Shown here: one piece after another, positions 1-9,051 of the stretch
Numbering within the stretch: position 1 is the stretch's first letter
Layout: every line of letters begins with the position of its first letter
DNA from: Chitinophagaceae bacterium
Lineage (GTDB): Bacteria > Bacteroidota > Bacteroidia > Chitinophagales > Chitinophagaceae
Assembly (NCBI GenBank): GCA_024643645.1
Contig: JAHEMN010000002.1
Coordinates: 20,175 to 84,174, forward strand
DNA length: 64,000 nucleotides
Direction of reading: 5' to 3'
Translations under genes and position numbers: made by a program
Notes under the pieces: generated by a model
The model's input: the letters and a program-made list of their open reading frames with translations, nothing else
Told to the model about the DNA's origin: nothing
Database searches by the model: none

Positions 1-358
1 TTTCCGCTTCAGTTTTTACATCGCTTTTCTTTTTCCCGGCTATCCAACCCGGTATACAAACATTTTCAAGAGCTGAAAATTCAGGTAAAAGATGGTGAAA
101 CTGGAAAACAAATCCAATATGCTTGTTTCGAAAAGCTGACAGCTTTACTCCACTAAGGGAATTAACCAACATATTATTCATTTTCACTTCGCCTGAATCT
201 GCATTATCTAAAGTGCCGAGAATATGTAATAATGTACTCTTTCCTGAACCGGAAGGACCCACAATTGAAACCACTTCTCCTTTATTTATCTCCAGGTCTA
301 CTCCCTTCAATACTTCTACTTTTCCGTAGCGTTTAAAAATATTTTTTCCTGATATCAT
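1..358 (-). CDS. ABC transporter ATP-binding protein, LolD-like (3' part outside window)
   Basis: This is the N-terminal 119 codons of an ABC ATPase that runs off the left edge of the window. The Walker A motif GPSGSGKST lies at residues 34-42, and the Q-loop FQFHHLLPEF (Gln86) is the form typical of the LolD/MacB group. LolD powers release of lipoproteins from the inner membrane to the LolA carrier. The start is the ATG complementary to 356-358. A LolC/E-like permease is encoded far away at 47365-48588, and whether the two are partners cannot be told from sequence. The family is clear, while the LolD assignment rests on the Q-loop and on general resemblance. Signature and Walker B motifs lie outside the window. 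Confidence 0.85.
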   Translation of the reverse strand, partial: MISGKNIFKRYGKVEVLKGVDLEINKGEVVSIVGPSGSGKSTLLHILGTLDNADSGEVKMNNMLVNSLSGVKLSAFRNKHIGFVFQFHHLLPEFSALENVCIPGWIAGKKKSDVKTEAE

Positions 359-522
359 GCAGCTAATAGTTCATTATATTAATCAATTGAATTGATATTG
401 GCAGCCCGAAACTATACAAATCAAGTTGAAAATTTTTCATAAAAGCCGGGTGATTCTAAAACAAAATTGCTTGTGTCCCGTTAAATTGAAAAATGCTCAA
501 AAAAACTGTTAAAAACTTAGGA

Positions 523-553
523 TTTGGAAAATACGTTAATACTACTACTTTTG
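523..553 (+). promoter_or_regulatory. Bacteroidota-type promoter (TTTG-N19-TACTTTTG)
   Basis: TTTG at 523-526 and TACTTTTG at 546-553 are separated by exactly 19 nt. This matches both elements of the Bacteroidota primary sigma factor consensus (-33 TTTG, -7 TAnnTTTG). It is the best two-element promoter I found in the window. It would give a 5' leader of roughly 60 nt for the small gene at 623. The 264-bp gap 359-622 holds nothing else I recognise. Confidence 0.7.
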
Positions 554-622
554 CGGAAAATTAAGGTATCTGAGTATAGCAATATATAACTAACCTTATT
601 CAAAAAATTAAATACCTAGAAG

Positions 623-844
623 ATGTTTTGGACTTTAGAATTAGCCTCGTACCTCGAAGACGCACCCTGGCCGGCTACCAAGGATGAATTGATTGATTAT
701 TCAATTCGTTCAGGTGCACCCATTGAAGTTGTAGAAAATTTACAGGAACTGGAAGATGAAGGTGATGTTTATGAAACCATCGAAGATATCTGGCCAGATT
801 ATCCTACGCATGAGGATTTCCTTTTTAATGAAGATGAATACTAA
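623..844 (+). CDS. DUF2795-like small acidic protein
   Basis: This 73-residue soluble acidic protein begins MFWTLELASYLEDAPWPATK and ends in a run of Asp/Glu/Tyr. The pattern of an aromatic N-terminus, a helical segment with DELIDYSIRSGAP, and an LQELEDEGD segment resembles the DUF2795 family that is widespread and highly conserved in Bacteroidota. I assign it from memory of that family and cannot give a function. It stands alone between a strong promoter at 523-553 and an intrinsic terminator at 889-919, so it is probably a monocistronic, well-expressed gene. No transmembrane or signal segment is visible. Confidence 0.8.
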   Translation: MFWTLELASYLEDAPWPATKDELIDYSIRSGAPIEVVENLQELEDEGDVYETIEDIWPDYPTHEDFLFNEDEY

Positions 845-888
845 TACACTTCCCCTTAAGGGGCAGAAATAACTTATTCTTATATTAC

Positions 889-919
889 AGAAGCCTCCAA
901 ATTGGAGGCTTCTTCTTTT
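889..919 (+). terminator. Intrinsic terminator
   Basis: AGAAGCCTCC (889-898) pairs perfectly with GGAGGCTTCT (904-913) around a 5-nt loop, followed by TCTTTT. It sits 45 bp after the stop of the 73-residue gene and ends its transcript. The convergent fabI gene ends at 981. Confidence 0.85.
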
Positions 920-980
920 ACATTTATGTTATTAAAAAGATATACAACAGATTTAATTTCCCTTTAGTAGAAAGGGGGGG

Positions 981-1796
981 CTACTCTACTCCTAACTTTT
1001 CCATTACTACATTACTAACTCCCGTTGTCGAATATCCTCCATCATGGAAAAGATTCTGCATAGTAACCATTCTGGTCAGGTCACTGAAAAGGGTGATACA
1101 GTAATTGGCACAATCTTCTGCCGATGCATTACCCAATGGTGCAATTGCCTCCGCATAATCAAAGAAATCGCCAAAGCCTTTAATACCTGTACCTGCTGTT
1201 GTTTTTGTAGGTGATTGTGAGACTGTATTGATACGTACTTTTTTATCAACCCCATAATGATAACCAAAGCTACGGGCTATAGATTCCAGCATTGCCTTTA
1301 TATCAGCCATATCTGTGTAAAAGGGATAAGTACGTTGTGCTGCCATATAAGTTAATGCCACTACACTACCCCATTCATTAATGGCATCAAGTTTTTTTGC
1401 AACTGCTAGCATTTTATGCAAAGACATGGCTGATACATCGATTCCTTTCATGAAATAATCATAATTCGATTCTGTATAAGGTATTTTTTTACGAATATTC
1501 ACACTCATACCTATAGAATGAAGTACGAAGTCAATTTTTCCACCTAATACTTCTTGTGATTTTGTAAATAAAGTAGTCAGTTCTTCCACATTTGTGGCAT
1601 CCGCCGGTATGATCTCTGATTTTGTTTTTTCTGCCAACTTATTTATTTCACCCATACGCATGGCAATTGGCGCATTTGTTAGCACAAATATTGCACCTTC
1701 TTCATGTGCCTTTTCAGCGACTTTCCAGGCAATGGAGTTTTCGTCCAGTGCACCAGTAATAATTCCTCTTTTTCCTTTCAATAAATTATAAGCCAT
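981..1796 (-). CDS. fabI: Enoyl-ACP reductase (NADH)
   Basis: This enzyme catalyses the last reductive step of the type II fatty-acid elongation cycle, reducing trans-2-enoyl-ACP. The protein is 271 residues, the normal FabI length. It has the FabI variant of the SDR nucleotide-binding motif, GIITGALDENSIAW (residues 11-24). The active site is of the Y-x(6)-K type: Tyr160 and Lys167 in YTDMADIK, with the second conserved tyrosine at Tyr150. The C-terminal region LFHDGGYST is also typical. The gene is separated from neighbours on both sides. A FabH-like synthase at 2169 and FabZ (fused to LpxC at 61884) belong to the same pathway. Confidence 0.95.
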   Translation of the reverse strand: MAYNLLKGKRGIITGALDENSIAWKVAEKAHEEGAIFVLTNAPIAMRMGEINKLAEKTKSEIIPADATNVEELTTLFTKSQEVLGGKIDFVLHSIGMSVNIRKKIPYTESNYDYFMKGIDVSAMSLHKMLAVAKKLDAINEWGSVVALTYMAAQRTYPFYTDMADIKAMLESIARSFGYHYGVDKKVRINTVSQSPTKTTAGTGIKGFGDFFDYAEAIAPLGNASAEDCANYCITLFSDLTRMVTMQNLFHDGGYSTTGVSNVVMEKLGVE

Positions 1797-1835
1797 AGAT
1801 GTTGATTTTATAGCAGTAAAAATAAGGAGATATTT

Positions 1836-2042
1836 TTAAGCTCCCGGAAACAGCATTCTAATGAAAAAAACAATAATAAATGTAAGTGCAAAAATCAATG
1901 TCATTACAGTTATCATCCAAAGTAAAAATTGTTTGAGCGATTCTCTGGGCTGTATTATCCTCTCAAGATATTTAATCAGTATATATACCGGAATTAATGC
2001 CAGTAAAATAATAATTAGAATCGGAATAGCTTTTAGTTTCAT
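1836..2042 (-). CDS. Small membrane protein of unknown function
   Basis: This 68-residue protein has two strongly hydrophobic stretches, about residues 5-24 and 40-64. A short charged loop separates them (KYLERIIQPRESLKQ). This suggests a two-helix inner-membrane hairpin. I do not recognise a family. The minus-strand reading is preferred over the overlapping plus-strand frame because it gives a conventional Met-Lys start and a coherent two-helix pattern. It lies 39 bp upstream of fabI on the same strand and could share its transcript. Confidence 0.55.
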   Translation of the reverse strand: MKLKAIPILIIILLALIPVYILIKYLERIIQPRESLKQFLLWMITVMTLIFALTFIIVFFIRMLFPGA

Positions 2043-2168
2043 TTGAAATAGTTATATAAGAAGTGTAATTTATTTTAAAATATTATTTCATTCAATAAAT
2101 TATTAAGTCTTGTTAATTACCTTTATTAGAATACCTATTCTGTGAGATCTTCAATAAATTCTTATTAA

Positions 2169-3245
2169 ATGAATGTGAAAACCGTAATTACCGGAACAGG
2201 ATGTTATATCCCTGAGACAATAAAGACCAATAAAGATTTTATTGATCAGGAATTTTACACTGATGAAAATCAACATCTCTCAACACCATCTGAGGTAATA
2301 GTAGAAAAATTCAGAGACATAACCGGAATTGAGGAAAGACGTTATATTGATGATACGATGAATTCATCTGATATGGCAACTATTGCAGCCCGTCAGGCTA
2401 TTGAAGATAGTGGTATTGATCCCGAAGAACTGGACCAGATCATTCTTGCACACAATTTCGGAAATGTTATAAAACATACCATTCAAACTGATGTATTACC
2501 GGCATTAGCATCAAGAGTAAAACATGACCTGGGTATAAAAAATCCAAACTGTGTTGCTTACGATATCTTATTTGGTTGCCCCGGATGGTTACAAGGTGTT
2601 ATTCAGGCAGATGCATTTTTTAAAGCAGGTATTGCAAAAAAAGCATTGGTAATTGGTACAGAAACATTAAGCAGAGTACTTGATATGTACGACAGGGACA
2701 GTATGATATTTTCTGATGGTGCTGGTGCATCAATACTTGAAGCTATCCCTGAAGAAAAAACATCAAGTGGCATCCTTTCTTCAAGTGTTCAAAGCCATTG
2801 TGTTGATGAAGCATTTTATTTGTATTTAGGTAAAAGCAATTTCCCTGATGCTGATTCAAAAATCAGGTATATAAAAATGAAAGGGCGAAAAGTGTACGAA
2901 TACGCCATGCAATATGTTCCGGTTGCAATGAAGGATTGTTTAGACAAAGCAAATATTCCTATTCAGGAAGTAAAAAAAGTTTTTATTCATCAGGCTAATG
3001 AAAAAATGGATGAAGGAATCATCAAACGATTATTTAAACTGTATGGTGAAAAAGAAATTCCTGATCATATAATGCCGATGAACATACATAAATATGGCAA
3101 TAGTTCTGTAGCTACCATTCCCACTTTATTTGACCAGGTAAAAAGAGGCAAACTTGAAAATCAATATTTTCAAACCGGTGATATAATACTTTTTGCTTCT
3201 GTTGGAGCAGGAATGAATATTAATGCAGTGTGCTACCGCATTTGA
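2169..3245 (+). CDS. 3-oxoacyl-ACP synthase III family (FabH-like)
   Basis: This is a thiolase-fold condensing enzyme of 358 residues. The Cys-His-Asn triad is complete: Cys137 in LFGCPGW, His274 in FIHQAN, and Asn311 in HKYGNSS. FabH joins acetyl-CoA or other acyl-CoAs to malonyl-ACP to start fatty-acid synthesis. The protein is about 30-40 residues longer than classical FabH (around 320), as in the second FabH-type branch found in Bacteroidota, so it may use a substrate other than acetyl-CoA. It stands alone on the plus strand, 33 bp ahead of pheT, which has its own promoter. Family sure, exact substrate unknown. Confidence 0.9.
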   Translation: MNVKTVITGTGCYIPETIKTNKDFIDQEFYTDENQHLSTPSEVIVEKFRDITGIEERRYIDDTMNSSDMATIAARQAIEDSGIDPEELDQIILAHNFGNVIKHTIQTDVLPALASRVKHDLGIKNPNCVAYDILFGCPGWLQGVIQADAFFKAGIAKKALVIGTETLSRVLDMYDRDSMIFSDGAGASILEAIPEEKTSSGILSSSVQSHCVDEAFYLYLGKSNFPDADSKIRYIKMKGRKVYEYAMQYVPVAMKDCLDKANIPIQEVKKVFIHQANEKMDEGIIKRLFKLYGEKEIPDHIMPMNIHKYGNSSVATIPTLFDQVKRGKLENQYFQTGDIILFASVGAGMNINAVCYRI

Positions 3246-3274
3246 TAACTTAGTGCTTCTCTCTCTTATCTTTG
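3241..3274 (+). promoter_or_regulatory. pheT promoter abutting the start codon
   Basis: TATCTTTG at 3267-3274 is a perfect TAnnTTTG -7 box, and a TTTG occurs 22 nt upstream at 3241-3244, slightly wider than the usual spacing. Only GCGC, 3275-3278, separates the box from the pheT ATG at 3279. Transcription would start at or within a few nt of the ATG, giving a leaderless mRNA. Confidence 0.6.
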
Positions 3275-3278
3275 CGCC

Positions 3279-5705
3279 ATGACGATCTCATATAAATGGC
3301 TAAGTGAATATTTACCCGTAACAGTTGAACCAGAAAGGTTAAGCCGTATTCTCACTTCAATAGGTTTGGAAGTTGAGAGTATGTATCAATACGAAGAAGT
3401 AAAAGGTGGATTAAAGGGCCTTGTAATTGGTGAAGTTTTAAGTACAGAAAAACATCCAAATGCAGATAAGCTGACAGTTACAAAAGTTACTATTGGCCAA
3501 AATGAGCCTTTACAAATTGTATGCGGAGCACCTAATGTTGCTGAAGGGCAAAAAGTAGTTGTTGCTACTGTTGGCACAACTATCTATCCGTTAAATGATG
3601 ATCCTCTGACAATGAAAGTAGCAAAGATCAGAAGTGTAGAAAGTCATGGAATGATCTGTGCTGAAGACGAAATAGGATTAGGAACTTCTCACGACGGAAT
3701 TATGGTACTACCTGATGATGCAAAAGTTGGTACCGCTGCTGCTGAATATTTTCAACCTTATGAGGATGTGGTATATGAAATCGGACTTACTCCAAACCGA
3801 ATGGATGCTATGAGCCATTGGGGAGTAGCCAGAGATGTATGTGCTTATCTGAGCCACCATGATAAACAGGATTTGAAACCAAAAACCCTAATATCAAATG
3901 GTTTTAAAATTGATAATAGCTCATTGACATTGGATGTATCTGTGGAAAATGAAACCGCTTGTCCCAGATATTCCGGCGTCAGTATTGCAAATGTTTCCAT
4001 TACAACTTCTCCAAAATGGCTGCAGCAAAAATTAAAAGCTATCGGCCTCAGGCCCATCAATAATATCGTTGATATAACTAATTTCATTCAGCATGAAACA
4101 GGGCAACCTTTACATGCATTTGATATAGATAAGATCACCGGTAAGAAGATCATTGTAAAAAATCTTCCAGAAGGAACCGGGTTTATTACGCTGGATGAGA
4201 AAAAAAGAACCTTGAATGCAGAAGATCTGATGATATGTGATGCAGCAGAAGGCATGTGCATAGCTGGTGTTTTTGGAGGAATACATAGTGGCGTTACAGA
4301 TACTACAAAAAACATCTTTCTTGAAAGTGCATTTTTTGATGCTGTAGCAATAAGAAAAACCTCTTTCCGACATGGACTTAGAACCGATGCTGCCAGCCGA
4401 TTTGAAAAAGGAACGGATATTTCTGCTACTGTAAACGTTTTAAAAAGAGCTGCGAAGCTTATTAAAGAGATTGCAGGAGGAGAAATCGCTTCTGAAATAG
4501 TGGATATATATCCAACTGTAAAACCAAAAACTGAAGTAGCTGTAAAATGGCATTTCATTAAAAAATTAAGTGGTAAAAATTATCACCCGGATGCTGTAAA
4601 GGATATTCTTAACAGCCTTGGTTTTGAAACACTCAAAGAAGGTATTGATGAGTTGCGGGTTGCTGTACCTTATCATAAACCAGACATTAGTTTTCCTGCT
4701 GATCTTGTAGAAGAGATCGTTCGAATAGACGGATTGGATAATATTGAAATACCATCATCAATAACAATTACACCAGCAGTTGACGAGAACTTTGAGAAAG
4801 AAATATTCTTTGAAAAAACGGCAAATTATTTAGTGGGCCAGGGATTCAATGAAATGATGACCAACTCCATCACTAATGCAGCCTATTTTTCTGAAGAAGA
4901 AAAGGAAAATATGGTTATTATGCTGAATAGCCTGAGTGCAGAATTAAATATATTACGCAATTCATTATTTGAAACTTCATTAGAAGTAGTAGCACATAAT
5001 CTCAATCATAAAAATAATTCTCTTCGCCTTTTTGAATTTGGTAAAGCTTATTCAAACGAAGGAAACAGCAAGTACAATGAAGATGCAAGGCTAAGTATTG
5101 TTATTGCCGGAAATAAAAATGATGACCACTGGAACCAAAAAGCCATAGCAGCTGATTTCTATACACTGAAAGGTATTGTTGAAGCAATCATGAATTTGTT
5201 GGGAGTTGAACCCGATTCAATTGAAAAGAATGAAGTACCTAAACTTCATAATCATATTGTTTTTAAATTAAATAATTTAATGCTGGGAGCTGCCGGAGAA
5301 GTTAAGAAGACAATACTAGAAAAATTTGGAATAAAACAACCCGTTTTTTATGCTGAGCTTAATTGGTCGGCTTTGTATGCGTTTGCATCAAAACAAAAAA
5401 ATAAAGTAAAGGAAATTTCAAAATATCCTTTGGTACAAAGAGACCTTGCAATGATCGTTTCCAAAGAATTGAAATGGGATGAAGTACAAAAAACAGTACA
5501 AAAGATCAAATTGAATAAATTACAGGACATTAAATTGTTTGATATTTTTGAAAGTGAAAAATTAGGTAACAATAAAAAATCGCTGGCTGTTAACTTTACT
5601 TTTCAGGATGAAGAAAAAACGTTGACAGACAAAGAAATTGATGGTTGGATGAATAAGATCATGTCTGCCATGGAAAAAGAACTACAGGCTGAAATCAGAA
5701 AATGA
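3279..5705 (+). CDS. pheT: Phenylalanine-tRNA ligase beta subunit
   Basis: This is the beta chain of the alpha2-beta2 phenylalanyl-tRNA synthetase, which charges tRNA-Phe. At 808 residues it is full length. In order it has the OB-fold tRNA-binding B1 domain (about 40-150), the B3/B4 editing region (about 210-390), B5 (about 400-480), the catalytic-like core, and a C-terminal anticodon-binding FDX-ACB domain. That last domain begins near the ISKYPLVQRDLAMIV segment. pheS is not in this window. The stop codon overlaps the start of the following coiled-coil gene (ATGA), so the two are translationally coupled. Confidence 0.97.
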   Translation: MTISYKWLSEYLPVTVEPERLSRILTSIGLEVESMYQYEEVKGGLKGLVIGEVLSTEKHPNADKLTVTKVTIGQNEPLQIVCGAPNVAEGQKVVVATVGTTIYPLNDDPLTMKVAKIRSVESHGMICAEDEIGLGTSHDGIMVLPDDAKVGTAAAEYFQPYEDVVYEIGLTPNRMDAMSHWGVARDVCAYLSHHDKQDLKPKTLISNGFKIDNSSLTLDVSVENETACPRYSGVSIANVSITTSPKWLQQKLKAIGLRPINNIVDITNFIQHETGQPLHAFDIDKITGKKIIVKNLPEGTGFITLDEKKRTLNAEDLMICDAAEGMCIAGVFGGIHSGVTDTTKNIFLESAFFDAVAIRKTSFRHGLRTDAASRFEKGTDISATVNVLKRAAKLIKEIAGGEIASEIVDIYPTVKPKTEVAVKWHFIKKLSGKNYHPDAVKDILNSLGFETLKEGIDELRVAVPYHKPDISFPADLVEEIVRIDGLDNIEIPSSITITPAVDENFEKEIFFEKTANYLVGQGFNEMMTNSITNAAYFSEEEKENMVIMLNSLSAELNILRNSLFETSLEVVAHNLNHKNNSLRLFEFGKAYSNEGNSKYNEDARLSIVIAGNKNDDHWNQKAIAADFYTLKGIVEAIMNLLGVEPDSIEKNEVPKLHNHIVFKLNNLMLGAAGEVKKTILEKFGIKQPVFYAELNWSALYAFASKQKNKVKEISKYPLVQRDLAMIVSKELKWDEVQKTVQKIKLNKLQDIKLFDIFESEKLGNNKKSLAVNFTFQDEEKTLTDKEIDGWMNKIMSAMEKELQAEIRK

Positions 5706-5989
5706 GTAGTACAGAACAACATTTAAAAAGAATACAGAATAAACTTCAACTATTATTGAAGGAGCATATTGCTGTGCAAAAGGAGAATGCTAAGTTGAAA
5801 GAAGACTTAAAAGATGCTGAACAAAAAATTGTTACTCAGCAAAAGAATATGGACCAATTGAAACAACAGGTAAGTATATTAAAAGTAACCTCAGGAGATA
5901 TGAGTGCAGCTGATAAAAAGGATTTTGAGAAAAGGATAAATGGCTATCTGAAAGAAATTGACCGTTGTATTACGATGCTTGGGCAATAA
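5702..5989 (+). CDS. Small coiled-coil protein between pheT and zapA
   Basis: This 95-residue, charged, almost wholly helical protein has heptad-like Leu/Ile spacing through about residues 8-65 (LKRIQNKLQLLLKEH, then long Lys/Glu/Gln-rich stretches). It carries a short C-terminal helix with FEKRINGYLKEIDRCI. Its ATG overlaps the pheT stop by 4 nt. I recognise no named family. Its position just ahead of zapA and its short coiled-coil form make a division-associated role, for example a ZapA partner, a reasonable guess and nothing more. No signal peptide or membrane helix is present. Confidence 0.8.
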   Translation: MSSTEQHLKRIQNKLQLLLKEHIAVQKENAKLKEDLKDAEQKIVTQQKNMDQLKQQVSILKVTSGDMSAADKKDFEKRINGYLKEIDRCITMLGQ

Positions 5990-5998
5990 AGTCCGACA

Positions 5999-6253
5999 TT
6001 AGACTCTTTTCACAAGATTCATTTTCATTTCATTGTCACCGTGAGAAAGTTCCAATGTATACCTTCCATAAGGCAGATCACTTAAACCGGCCCAGGTCAT
6101 TTCTTCAAAATCAGCAATTATGTCTTTTTCGATAGTACGACAAACACATCCTGCATCATCCTTTAACACTCCACGAAGACAAATTCCTTTGGGTGCAGAT
6201 AGTTGTAATCGCAGCGCATCAATAAAAACTGATGACTTAACTTTAGCAAACAT
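5999..6253 (-). CDS. Hypothetical 84-residue protein
   Basis: This reading frame is on the opposite strand between the coiled-coil gene and zapA, ending 9 bp from the stop of the former. The protein looks soluble and beta-rich. Its C-terminal half (LPYGRYTLELSHGDNE) resembles one edge of an Ig- or carboxypeptidase-regulatory-like fold, while the centre carries an unusual GCVC pair of cysteines. I cannot name a family. It is favoured over the overlapping plus-strand frame at 6120-6320 by its more protein-like composition. Confidence 0.6.
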   Translation of the reverse strand: MFAKVKSSVFIDALRLQLSAPKGICLRGVLKDDAGCVCRTIEKDIIADFEEMTWAGLSDLPYGRYTLELSHGDNEMKMNLVKRV

Positions 6254-6378
6254 GGCAATTATATTAAATAAAAAAATCGTTTACACAATGGCTTTTAACC
6301 AATATTACAAGCGGGTATGAATTTGAGGATAATTAATGGGTAACTAATATAATAAAATATTACTAAAAAAACCAATAT

Positions 6379-6672
6379 ATGAGTGATTTAATTGCAATTT
6401 CTGCTTTGATCGGTGACCGTAATTATCGTATTAAAATCGAGCCAGCAGATGAAGAAGTAGTTAGAAAAACCCTCAAAACAATAAACGAAAAGATCGTTGA
6501 ATTTAAAACCATGTTTGCCGGTAAGGATATGCAGGACTATATAGCTATGGTGTTGATCTGGTATGCGACCGAGCAAAATGCCGGAACTGCAGCGGGGTTA
6601 GAAAAACTAAACCTAACGGATCAATTATCCACAATAGAAAAATTATTAGATGGTCAGTTAGATAACAAATAA
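6379..6672 (+). CDS. zapA: Cell division protein ZapA
   Basis: This 97-residue protein matches the ZapA family: an N-terminal beta-strand region with IGDRNYRIKI, then E-x-x-VRKTLKTINEKI. A long helix follows with the conserved DMQDYIAMVLIWYA segment. ZapA binds FtsZ and promotes bundling of Z-ring filaments. The gene lies between pheT with its coiled-coil partner and rny. The next gene, rny, is 210 bp further on and probably has its own promoter. Confidence 0.88.
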   Translation: MSDLIAISALIGDRNYRIKIEPADEEVVRKTLKTINEKIVEFKTMFAGKDMQDYIAMVLIWYATEQNAGTAAGLEKLNLTDQLSTIEKLLDGQLDNK

Positions 6673-6814
6673 TAATTCTTTATTGGGTGAATTCCGGGAT
6701 TTATCTCAGTTAAAATCAATATATCAACGTATTAGAATTGACCACTTTATCCAATAATTGAAGTTAATTTTCAATTTTCCACTATTACCCCTCGTTTTGT
6801 ATCTTCGCTATTAA

Positions 6815-6833
6815 TCCCGACATTTCGTCGGGA
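6815..6833 (+). promoter_or_regulatory. Stem-loop in the rny leader
   Basis: TCCCGAC (6815-6821) and GTCGGGA (6827-6833) form a perfect 7-bp GC-rich stem with loop ATTTC. It lies 8 nt downstream of a near-consensus -7 box (TATCTTCG, 6800-6807, one mismatch) and 49 nt before the rny ATG. It would therefore form at the very 5' end of the rny mRNA. No T-run follows, so it is not a terminator; it could protect the mRNA or bind a regulator. Confidence 0.5.
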
Positions 6834-6882
6834 AATTTAATATTAAGAAATAGCATTGTGCAACATCTAAACAAACACATTC

Positions 6883-8448
6883 ATGGATCCGAATATATTA
6901 TCTATCATAGTAGGCTCTGTTGCCCTTATTGTAGGGCTCATAGCGGGTAAATTCATATTTGCCAAAAACACAAAAAAGAAAATTGAAGAAGCAGAAATCC
7001 AGTCTCAATCCATCCTAAAAGAAGCCGCTCTAAGAGCTGAAACAATACGAAAAGAAAAGGAGCTGGAAGCCAAAGAGAGATTTGTTCAATTAAAATCCGC
7101 TCATGATAAAGAGGTCATGGATAAGACCAAAAAGATGAACGATGCGGAAAACCGAACCCGGCAGAAAGAACAATCCATCAACCAAAAAGAATCAAATCTT
7201 GATAAGCAGATCAAAGAAAATGATGCTATCAAAGAAAATCTGAACCGTCAGATACAACTGGTGAATATAAAAAGAACTGAACTGGAAAAACACCAGGAAG
7301 AGCATATTCGCCGGTTAGAAAAAATTGCAACTTTAACTGCTGAAGAAGCAAAATCACAATTAATAGAAAGTCTGAAAAGTGAGGCACATACCCAGGCGGT
7401 AGGTATCCAACAGGAGATCATTGATGATGCCAAGCAAAAGGCCAATAAAGAAGCAAGAAAAATTATAATTCAAACTATTCAGCGAACTGCGGCAGAACAA
7501 GCAATTGAAAATACGATCACTGTTTTCAATCTTGAAAGTGATGAGATCAAAGGCCAGATCATCGGTCGTGAGGGCCGAAATATCCGTGCCATTGAAGCAG
7601 CAACCGGTGTTGACCTGATCGTTGATGATACACCGGAAGCTATCCTTCTTTCTTCATTTGACCCTCTTCGCAGAGAAATTGCCCGTTTAAGTCTGCAGCG
7701 TTTGGTTGCTGATGGACGTATACACCCGGCAAGAATTGAAGAAGTTGTCGAAAAGACAAAAAAGCAGATAGAAGAACAAGTAAGAGAAATTGGTGAAAGG
7801 ACTGTGATTGAAATGGGAATACATGGATTACATAAAGAATTAGTGAGAATGGTAGGCCGTATGCGTTTCCGTTCTTCTTATGGTCAGAACCTTTTAATGC
7901 ACAGCCGTGAAACTGCTAATCTTTGTGCTACAATGGCTGCCGAATTGGGGTTAAATGCCAAACTAGCCAAAAGAGCCGGATTACTACATGATATTGGTAA
8001 AGTACCGGATGAAGAAAGTGAATTAAGCCATGCTTTATTAGGTGCTAAACTTGCAGAAAAATATGGTGAAAATCCTGCTGTTGTAAATGCAATAGGTGCC
8101 CACCATGATGAAATGGAGATGCAATATGTAATTTCTCCTATTGTACAGGCATGTGATGCCATCAGCGGTGCAAGACCCGGTGCCCGAAGAGAGATTATGC
8201 AGCAATATCTGCAACGGATCAAAGACCTTGAGAACCTGGCAATGGCGTATGATGGGGTGGAAAAAGCCTATGCTATTCAAGCAGGACGGGAACTAAGGGT
8301 AATTGTAGAGGCAGACAAAGTAACAGATCAGGAATCTGATAAATTATCTTTTGAGATTGCCCAGAAAATACAAACTGAAATGACCTTTCCCGGACAAATA
8401 AAAGTTACCGTCATCAGAGAAAAAAGAGCAGTTAATGTGGCGAGATAA
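6883..8448 (+). CDS. rny: Ribonuclease Y
   Basis: This membrane-anchored endoribonuclease initiates mRNA decay. The protein is 521 residues, the family norm. It has an N-terminal transmembrane helix (about 4-27), a long coiled coil rich in Lys/Glu/Gln (about 30-200), and a KH RNA-binding domain with the GREGRN motif near 229. The HD domain has its metal-binding pair His369-Asp370 in LLHDIGK and a further AHHDEME motif. It is preceded by a leader stem-loop at 6815-6833. The gene ends 136 bp before rplS, which has its own promoter. Confidence 0.97.
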
Positions 8449-8556
8449 TAATTTAGTATTTAAGTGATTATAGAGTAAAGTTTCAGTGTTTTGCCGATTG
8501 GTGAAATTTGAAAAAAAACATTGACCATTAAACTATAATTTTTAAACTGATTCCCT

Positions 8557-8564
8557 TACCTTTG
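8557..8564 (+). promoter_or_regulatory. rplS promoter -7 box
   Basis: TACCTTTG is a perfect Bacteroidota -7 element, 20 nt upstream of the rplS ATG. No convincing TTTG is seen at the expected -33 position, only AT-rich sequence. Confidence 0.6.
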
Positions 8565-8584
8565 CCCTCCTAAAAATCAGGAAT

Positions 8585-8947
8585 ATGAACGCTATAGCAT
8601 ATGTACATGAGCAGTTGACCGGCAAAAAAGAATTCCCAAAATTCAAAGCCGGTGATAACATTACAGTTAATTATAAGATCATTGAAGGAAATAAGGAAAG
8701 GATCCAGTCTTTCAAGGGTGATGTAATTAAAAAGCAAGGTACCGGAGCTACTGCAAGTTTTACTGTTCGTAAAATTTCTGACGGAATTGGTGTAGAAAGA
8801 GTTTTCCCTTTCTTTTCTCCAAATGTTGATTCAATAGTTGTGAATAAAACTGGTAATGTACGCAGAGCAAAGTTATTCTATCAGCGTAGCCGTAGTGGTA
8901 AGAGTGCCAGAATCCGTGAAAAACGTATGATCGTTTCTAACAATTAA
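8585..8947 (+). CDS. rplS: 50S ribosomal protein L19
   Basis: L19 lies at the interface of the two ribosomal subunits. The protein is 120 residues, and its central segments (FKAGDNITVNYKI, ERIQSFKGDVIK, FPFFSPNVDSIVV, RRAKLFYQR) are the conserved core of bacterial L19. It is monocistronic here, between its own promoter (8557-8564) and a strong terminator (8967-8999). In many bacteria rplS sits with trmD and rimM, which are not nearby. Confidence 0.97.
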   Translation: MNAIAYVHEQLTGKKEFPKFKAGDNITVNYKIIEGNKERIQSFKGDVIKKQGTGATASFTVRKISDGIGVERVFPFFSPNVDSIVVNKTGNVRRAKLFYQRSRSGKSARIREKRMIVSNN

Positions 8948-8966
8948 TAGTTTTAATAAATAATTT

Positions 8967-8999
8967 AAAAGCTTTCCAATAAAAAGGAAAGCTTTTTTT
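8967..8999 (+). terminator. Intrinsic terminator after rplS
   Basis: AAAAGCTTTCC (8967-8977) pairs perfectly with GGAAAGCTTTT (8986-8996) around an 8-nt A-rich loop and continues into a T-run. It is located 20 bp after the rplS stop. Confidence 0.92.
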
Positions 9000-9051
9000 A
9001 TTAAATGCTGTTAAATAATAACATATTAGTCCTTTATTTTTCGATACTTAC

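Follow-up and report, generated by a model that had tools for sequence, protein, structure and literature searches.

Predicted leaderless initiation at pheT and a conserved minority promoter layout in Chitinophagaceae

Leaderless mRNAs make up a small share of the transcripts measured in Bacteroidota. They account for 5.5% in F. psychrophilum (PMC9723704); leaders are under 10 nt for 3.7% in B. thetaiotaomicron (PMC7366714) and 10 nt or less for 13% of a promoter subset in F. johnsoniae (PMC6847099). In F. johnsoniae, the -7 box has the form TAHHTTTG with its G at position -5, and many transcription start sites (TSSs) lie 4 or 5 nt downstream (PMC6847099). A related arrangement occurs in Deinococcus-Thermus, where a -10 region adjacent to the ORF is a common layout and is found at about one third of genes in D. 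radiodurans (PMC12340547). A 2011 survey of TA-led genes counted many Bacteroidetes genes as "atypical" (PMC3160421). Our literature search on leaderless genes in Chitinophaga returned nothing specific.

Here we describe a similar arrangement at pheT in a Chitinophagaceae bacterium. It resembles the cases in F. psychrophilum, B. thetaiotaomicron and F. johnsoniae in phylum, in the TAnnTTTG -7 box and in the low share of genes concerned. The evidence there is RNA-seq from other families; the pheT start is a prediction from sequence, accompanied by conservation, gene by gene, of a 4-nt gap across species. With the Deinococcus-Thermus layout (PMC12340547) and the TA-led genes (PMC3160421) it shares a box a few nucleotides 5′ of the start codon, a predicted leaderless mRNA and its occurrence at many ordinary genes. 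Those systems use a sigma-70-type box (TANNNT), present at about one third of genes in D. radiodurans; the box here is TAnnTTTG, at about 2%. The low leaderless fractions measured in other Bacteroidota counted against reading pheT as leaderless.

The stretch of DNA that we analysed (the window, 64,000 nt) carries pheT on the + strand at 3279..5705. The gene encodes the 808-aa beta subunit of phenylalanyl-tRNA synthetase, with the Pfam domains B3_4, tRNA_synthFbeta, FDX-ACB, tRNA_bind and B5, and the best-matching named records of the protein are mostly Chitinophagaceae MAGs. Directly upstream on the same strand (2169..3245) lies a fabH-like gene, whose product has the domains of the 3-oxoacyl-ACP synthase III family (Pfam) and whose TGA stop codon (3243-3245) is separated from the pheT ATG (3279-3281) by 33 nt. 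When the N termini of about 100 distinct PheT orthologues were aligned, the motif M-x-[ILV]-[SA]-x-x-W-L began at the same codon in nearly all of them. Since orthologues start at this codon, the pheT start is correctly assigned, with no earlier in-frame start in use; upstream of the ATG, the reading frame is open for 10 codons only. At the other end of the gene, the stop codon of pheT and the start codon of a 95-aa ORF overlap (ATGA, window 5702-5705), so translation of that ORF may be coupled to that of pheT.

The sequence TATCTTTG occupies 3267..3274 on the + strand and matches TAHHTTTG, the -7 box of Bacteroidota housekeeping (sigma-ABfr type) promoters (PMC6847099). A sequence-only reading of this DNA had placed the box at these positions, 4 nt before the ATG, and the sequence bears this out; the spacer (3275..3278, + strand) reads CGCC and not GCGC as that reading had it, which alters nothing else. 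Because the box ends with its G at 3274 and this G is -5 in F. johnsoniae, the predicted +1 is 3279 (+ strand), the A of the pheT ATG (PMC6847099). The pheT mRNA should therefore begin with the AUG itself if the F. johnsoniae spacing applies, and the earlier claim that the start point coincides with the initiation codon fits in position, for a +1 that is a predicted one. A possible -33 element, TTTG at 3241..3244 on the + strand, lies 22 nt 5′ of the -7 box and overlaps the fabH-like stop codon. It is weak and not conserved, being absent at that place in the relative L032; the -33 element of F. johnsoniae is likewise poorly marked (PMC6847099). Secondary structure at the 5′ end of the pheT mRNA is unremarkable (z 0.93), and no Rfam family was found in window 1-9000.

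The explanation that we favour, and to which we give a probability of about 0.8 as a whole, is that a separate promoter, read by the Bacteroidota housekeeping sigma factor, drives pheT from within the 33 nt that follow the fabH-like stop codon. RNA polymerase would recognise TATCTTTG and initiate at the A of the start codon, 5 nt past the final G of the box. The main pheT mRNA would have no leader, and the ribosome would presumably load directly on the 5′-terminal AUG, as happens with leaderless mRNAs elsewhere. A bicistronic transcript may also arise by read-through from the fabH-like gene, since our search for terminator-like sites on the + strand of the intergenic space found none. The explanation includes two wider elements: the pheT layout would be one case of a minority promoter layout, with the box exactly 4 nt before the ATG, in about 50 genes, and in pheT itself this state would probably be derived.

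To count such boxes across the genome against a shuffled control had been proposed with the sequence-only reading, and the count gave a sharp peak at exactly 4 nt before the ATG. We used a sample of 837 kb from the same genome, with 646 genes starting with ATG, most of it from contigs already selected for a gap-4 match. TAHHTTTG stood at a gap of 4 nt in 18 of the 646 genes, compared with 0.45 expected from dinucleotide-shuffled upstream regions, a count that overstates the gap-4 share owing to this choice of contigs. By the same shuffles, the chance of the box at any one position is about 0.07% per gene. Reversed control patterns gave no peak at gap 4. In the gap distribution, gaps of 9-11 nt were empty and a second, broad hump lay at about 13-29 nt. 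Sites of the form TANNTTTG-Nk-ATG, a measure that the choice of contigs does not inflate, told the same story from the side of the ATG: the fraction that opened a called gene in the sample was 0.54 at k=4 (19/35), 0-0.24 at k=0-3 and 5-17, and climbed again to 0.09-0.36 at k=18-29. Only about 2% of all ATGs are called gene starts.

The whole genome contains 73 gap-4 sites (TANNTTTGNNNNATG), hardly more than the 67 of the reversed control, and the signal appears only once gene starts are considered. Of 71 distinct sites that we read from this complete search, which likewise avoids the sampling bias, 48 open a credible gene, defined here as an ORF whose coding score exceeds 8. These 48 correspond to about 2% of all genes, whose total we put at roughly 2,600 from the density of gene calls. 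The inflated sample had 20 genes with the box at gap 4 and 62 with it at 12-40 nt, so gap 4 accounts for at most about a quarter of genes with a box within 40 nt. Leaderless initiation is thus predicted, from these counts and the conservation described below, to be a real and conserved minority mode at about 2% of all genes, as judged by TTTG boxes at gap 4. The suggestion that it is a normal mode here is upheld in that sense, and it is not the rule. As a separate matter, TANNTTTG is rarer in window 1-64000 than expected from dinucleotide shuffles (55 sites versus 93), a pattern that would fit avoidance of stray promoter boxes.

Pfam searches confirmed that the gap-4 set includes ordinary housekeeping genes. 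Besides pheT, these are gatC, truB, trmD, a SpoU methylase gene, miaE, a DAHP synthase/chorismate mutase gene, mgtE, serC-like and serA-like genes, lipA, folD, a phosphoribosyltransferase gene (pyrE-like), recR, dut, a Mur ligase gene, nadE and an Fe-S assembly gene. An apparent excess of tRNA and rRNA genes in the sample (6 of 18) was much weaker among the 48 genes genome-wide and was dropped.

The 4-nt peak is common to three other genomes of the order, sampled by contig number without regard to box matches. A TTTG box stood at gap 4 in five cases in G022 (0.13 expected) and seven in G019 (0.09 expected); in G042, from another family, there was one TTTG box (0.17 expected) and four TTCG boxes (0.04 expected). 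Individual genes also keep the gap. Within the genus, a gap of 4 nt is found in 26 of 30 trmD orthologues and, for gatC, in 16 of 17 species; for both genes the sequence 5′ of the box varies. Outside the genus, trmD has gap 4 in L377 alone. Orthologues of aroG and truB are looser, with gap 4, gap 5 or no box. Two of the orthologues, trmD at G036:C5:155849-156523 and truB at G053:C9:73445-74110, each contain one in-frame stop codon, possibly from sequencing error, frameshift or decay.

The box at pheT is itself widespread. A TAnnTTYG box lies no more than 61 nt from the pheT start in 95 of 101 distinct upstream regions and is absent within this reach in the other six. The gap is 4 nt in 10 of the 101 (nine before ATG, one before GTG), 5-7 nt in 3, 11-12 nt in 3, 18-30 nt in 65 and 32-61 nt in 14. 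Given a start 4-5 nt past the box, gaps of 18-30 nt would correspond to leaders of about 14-26 nt. The box and gap described here are identical in L031 and in L032, L042, L044, L047, L100 and L195, the last six being species other than its own, and the upstream sequence has diverged. The intergenic space between the fabH-like gene and pheT is 27 or 33 nt in gap-4 species and 48-67 nt in leadered ones; one exception, L059, combines a leadered pheT with a 34-nt space, its box directly following the stop codon. The difference between the two states is mostly about one leader in length, as if a leader had been deleted or inserted. Judged from these alignments, pheT is a labile case, most relatives having the box some 20 nt farther upstream and a short predicted leader, so that the essentiality of the gene, which had been offered as an argument for leaderless initiation as a normal mode, does not by itself prove a rule.

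In a quickly built tree of 85 PheT proteins (eight of them gap-4 rows; many branches weak, root not inferred), the gap-4 state was scattered. Parsimony requires five changes, of which the well-supported branches account for at least two. In the more distant genera Niabella, Flavisolibacter and Terrimonas, pheT is leadered. The leaderless state is therefore probably derived, a direction that we infer from these leadered distant genera on an unrooted tree.

The two states also differ in the box. Among close relatives, leadered pheT genes have TATCTTCG and leaderless ones TATCTTTG, with one exception (L193), and a stronger box could possibly offset leaderless translation in pheT. In many leadered relatives (L033-L041, L043, L045-L046, L048-L050 and others), TATCTTCG is followed by GC and is near-identical over wide distances. 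G042 likewise favours TTCG boxes, and a -7 consensus in which the seventh base is C may be a common variant in the order. One clade (L055, L057, L060, L214, L218, L219 and L222) has TATCTTCG at 11-12 nt, between the usual states.

We considered whether pheT might instead be expressed mainly by read-through from the fabH-like gene, with TATCTTTG weak or secondary and the AUG used mostly inside a bicistronic mRNA. The two genes lie on the same strand 33 nt apart, no terminator-like site separates them on the + strand, and their order is kept in many relatives. However, the box is retained as its surroundings change, and the 95 regions that have it include those of relatives in which no fabH-like stop codon was recognised nearby. 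The initiation context points the same way. An A at position -3 is favoured in Bacteroidota, yet it is present in 1 of 10 gap-4 pheT genes compared with 38 of 78 leadered ones, a suggestive difference (Fisher p 0.04) between related sequences that are not independent. Across genomes, loss of this A in gap-4 genes was non-significant (9/33 versus 39/100, p 0.3). We regard predominant read-through as unlikely.

The box could also be a promoter whose start lies at a position 1-3 nt off the A, such as 3278 or 3280, giving a leader of 1-3 nt or some mRNAs that begin within the AUG. TSSs in F. johnsoniae fall 4 or 5 nt past the box (PMC6847099), and a gap of 5 nt also occurs in G022 genes and in truB and aroG orthologues. 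Yet gap 4 is much commoner than gap 3 or gap 5 in both this genome and G019. Transcription usually prefers to start at an A that follows a pyrimidine, as does the A at 3279 after the C at 3278, and a shifted start seems improbable. That the box is a chance match without a role is strongly disfavoured, to the point of being scarcely credible: TAnnTTTG is short and has 55 copies in the window, but these are fewer than shuffling predicts, a match at the exact position is expected in about 0.07% of genes, and the same box and gap recur in several diverged relatives.

The mechanism proposed for pheT, an own promoter and a leaderless main mRNA, is already of a known kind; what would be new is the gene-by-gene conservation of the exact 4-nt phasing and the switching of pheT between close relatives. 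A broader and more tentative proposal, which we put at slightly under even odds, is that leader length is nearly all-or-none, with either no leader and the box at 4 nt or a leader of about 10-25 nt and little between. Genes such as pheT would jump repeatedly between the two, and trmD and gatC would be held leaderless across the genus. If true, this would mean two separate modes of ribosome loading under gene-by-gene selection. For annotation, a TAnnTTTG box that ends 4 nt short of an ATG would also be a useful cue, marking a likely true start codon. Because Bacteroidota rarely use Shine-Dalgarno pairing, how their ribosomes find the start codon is a live question, and the roughly 50 predicted leaderless genes, with leaderless and leadered orthologues in neighbouring species, would provide natural pairs with which to test it.
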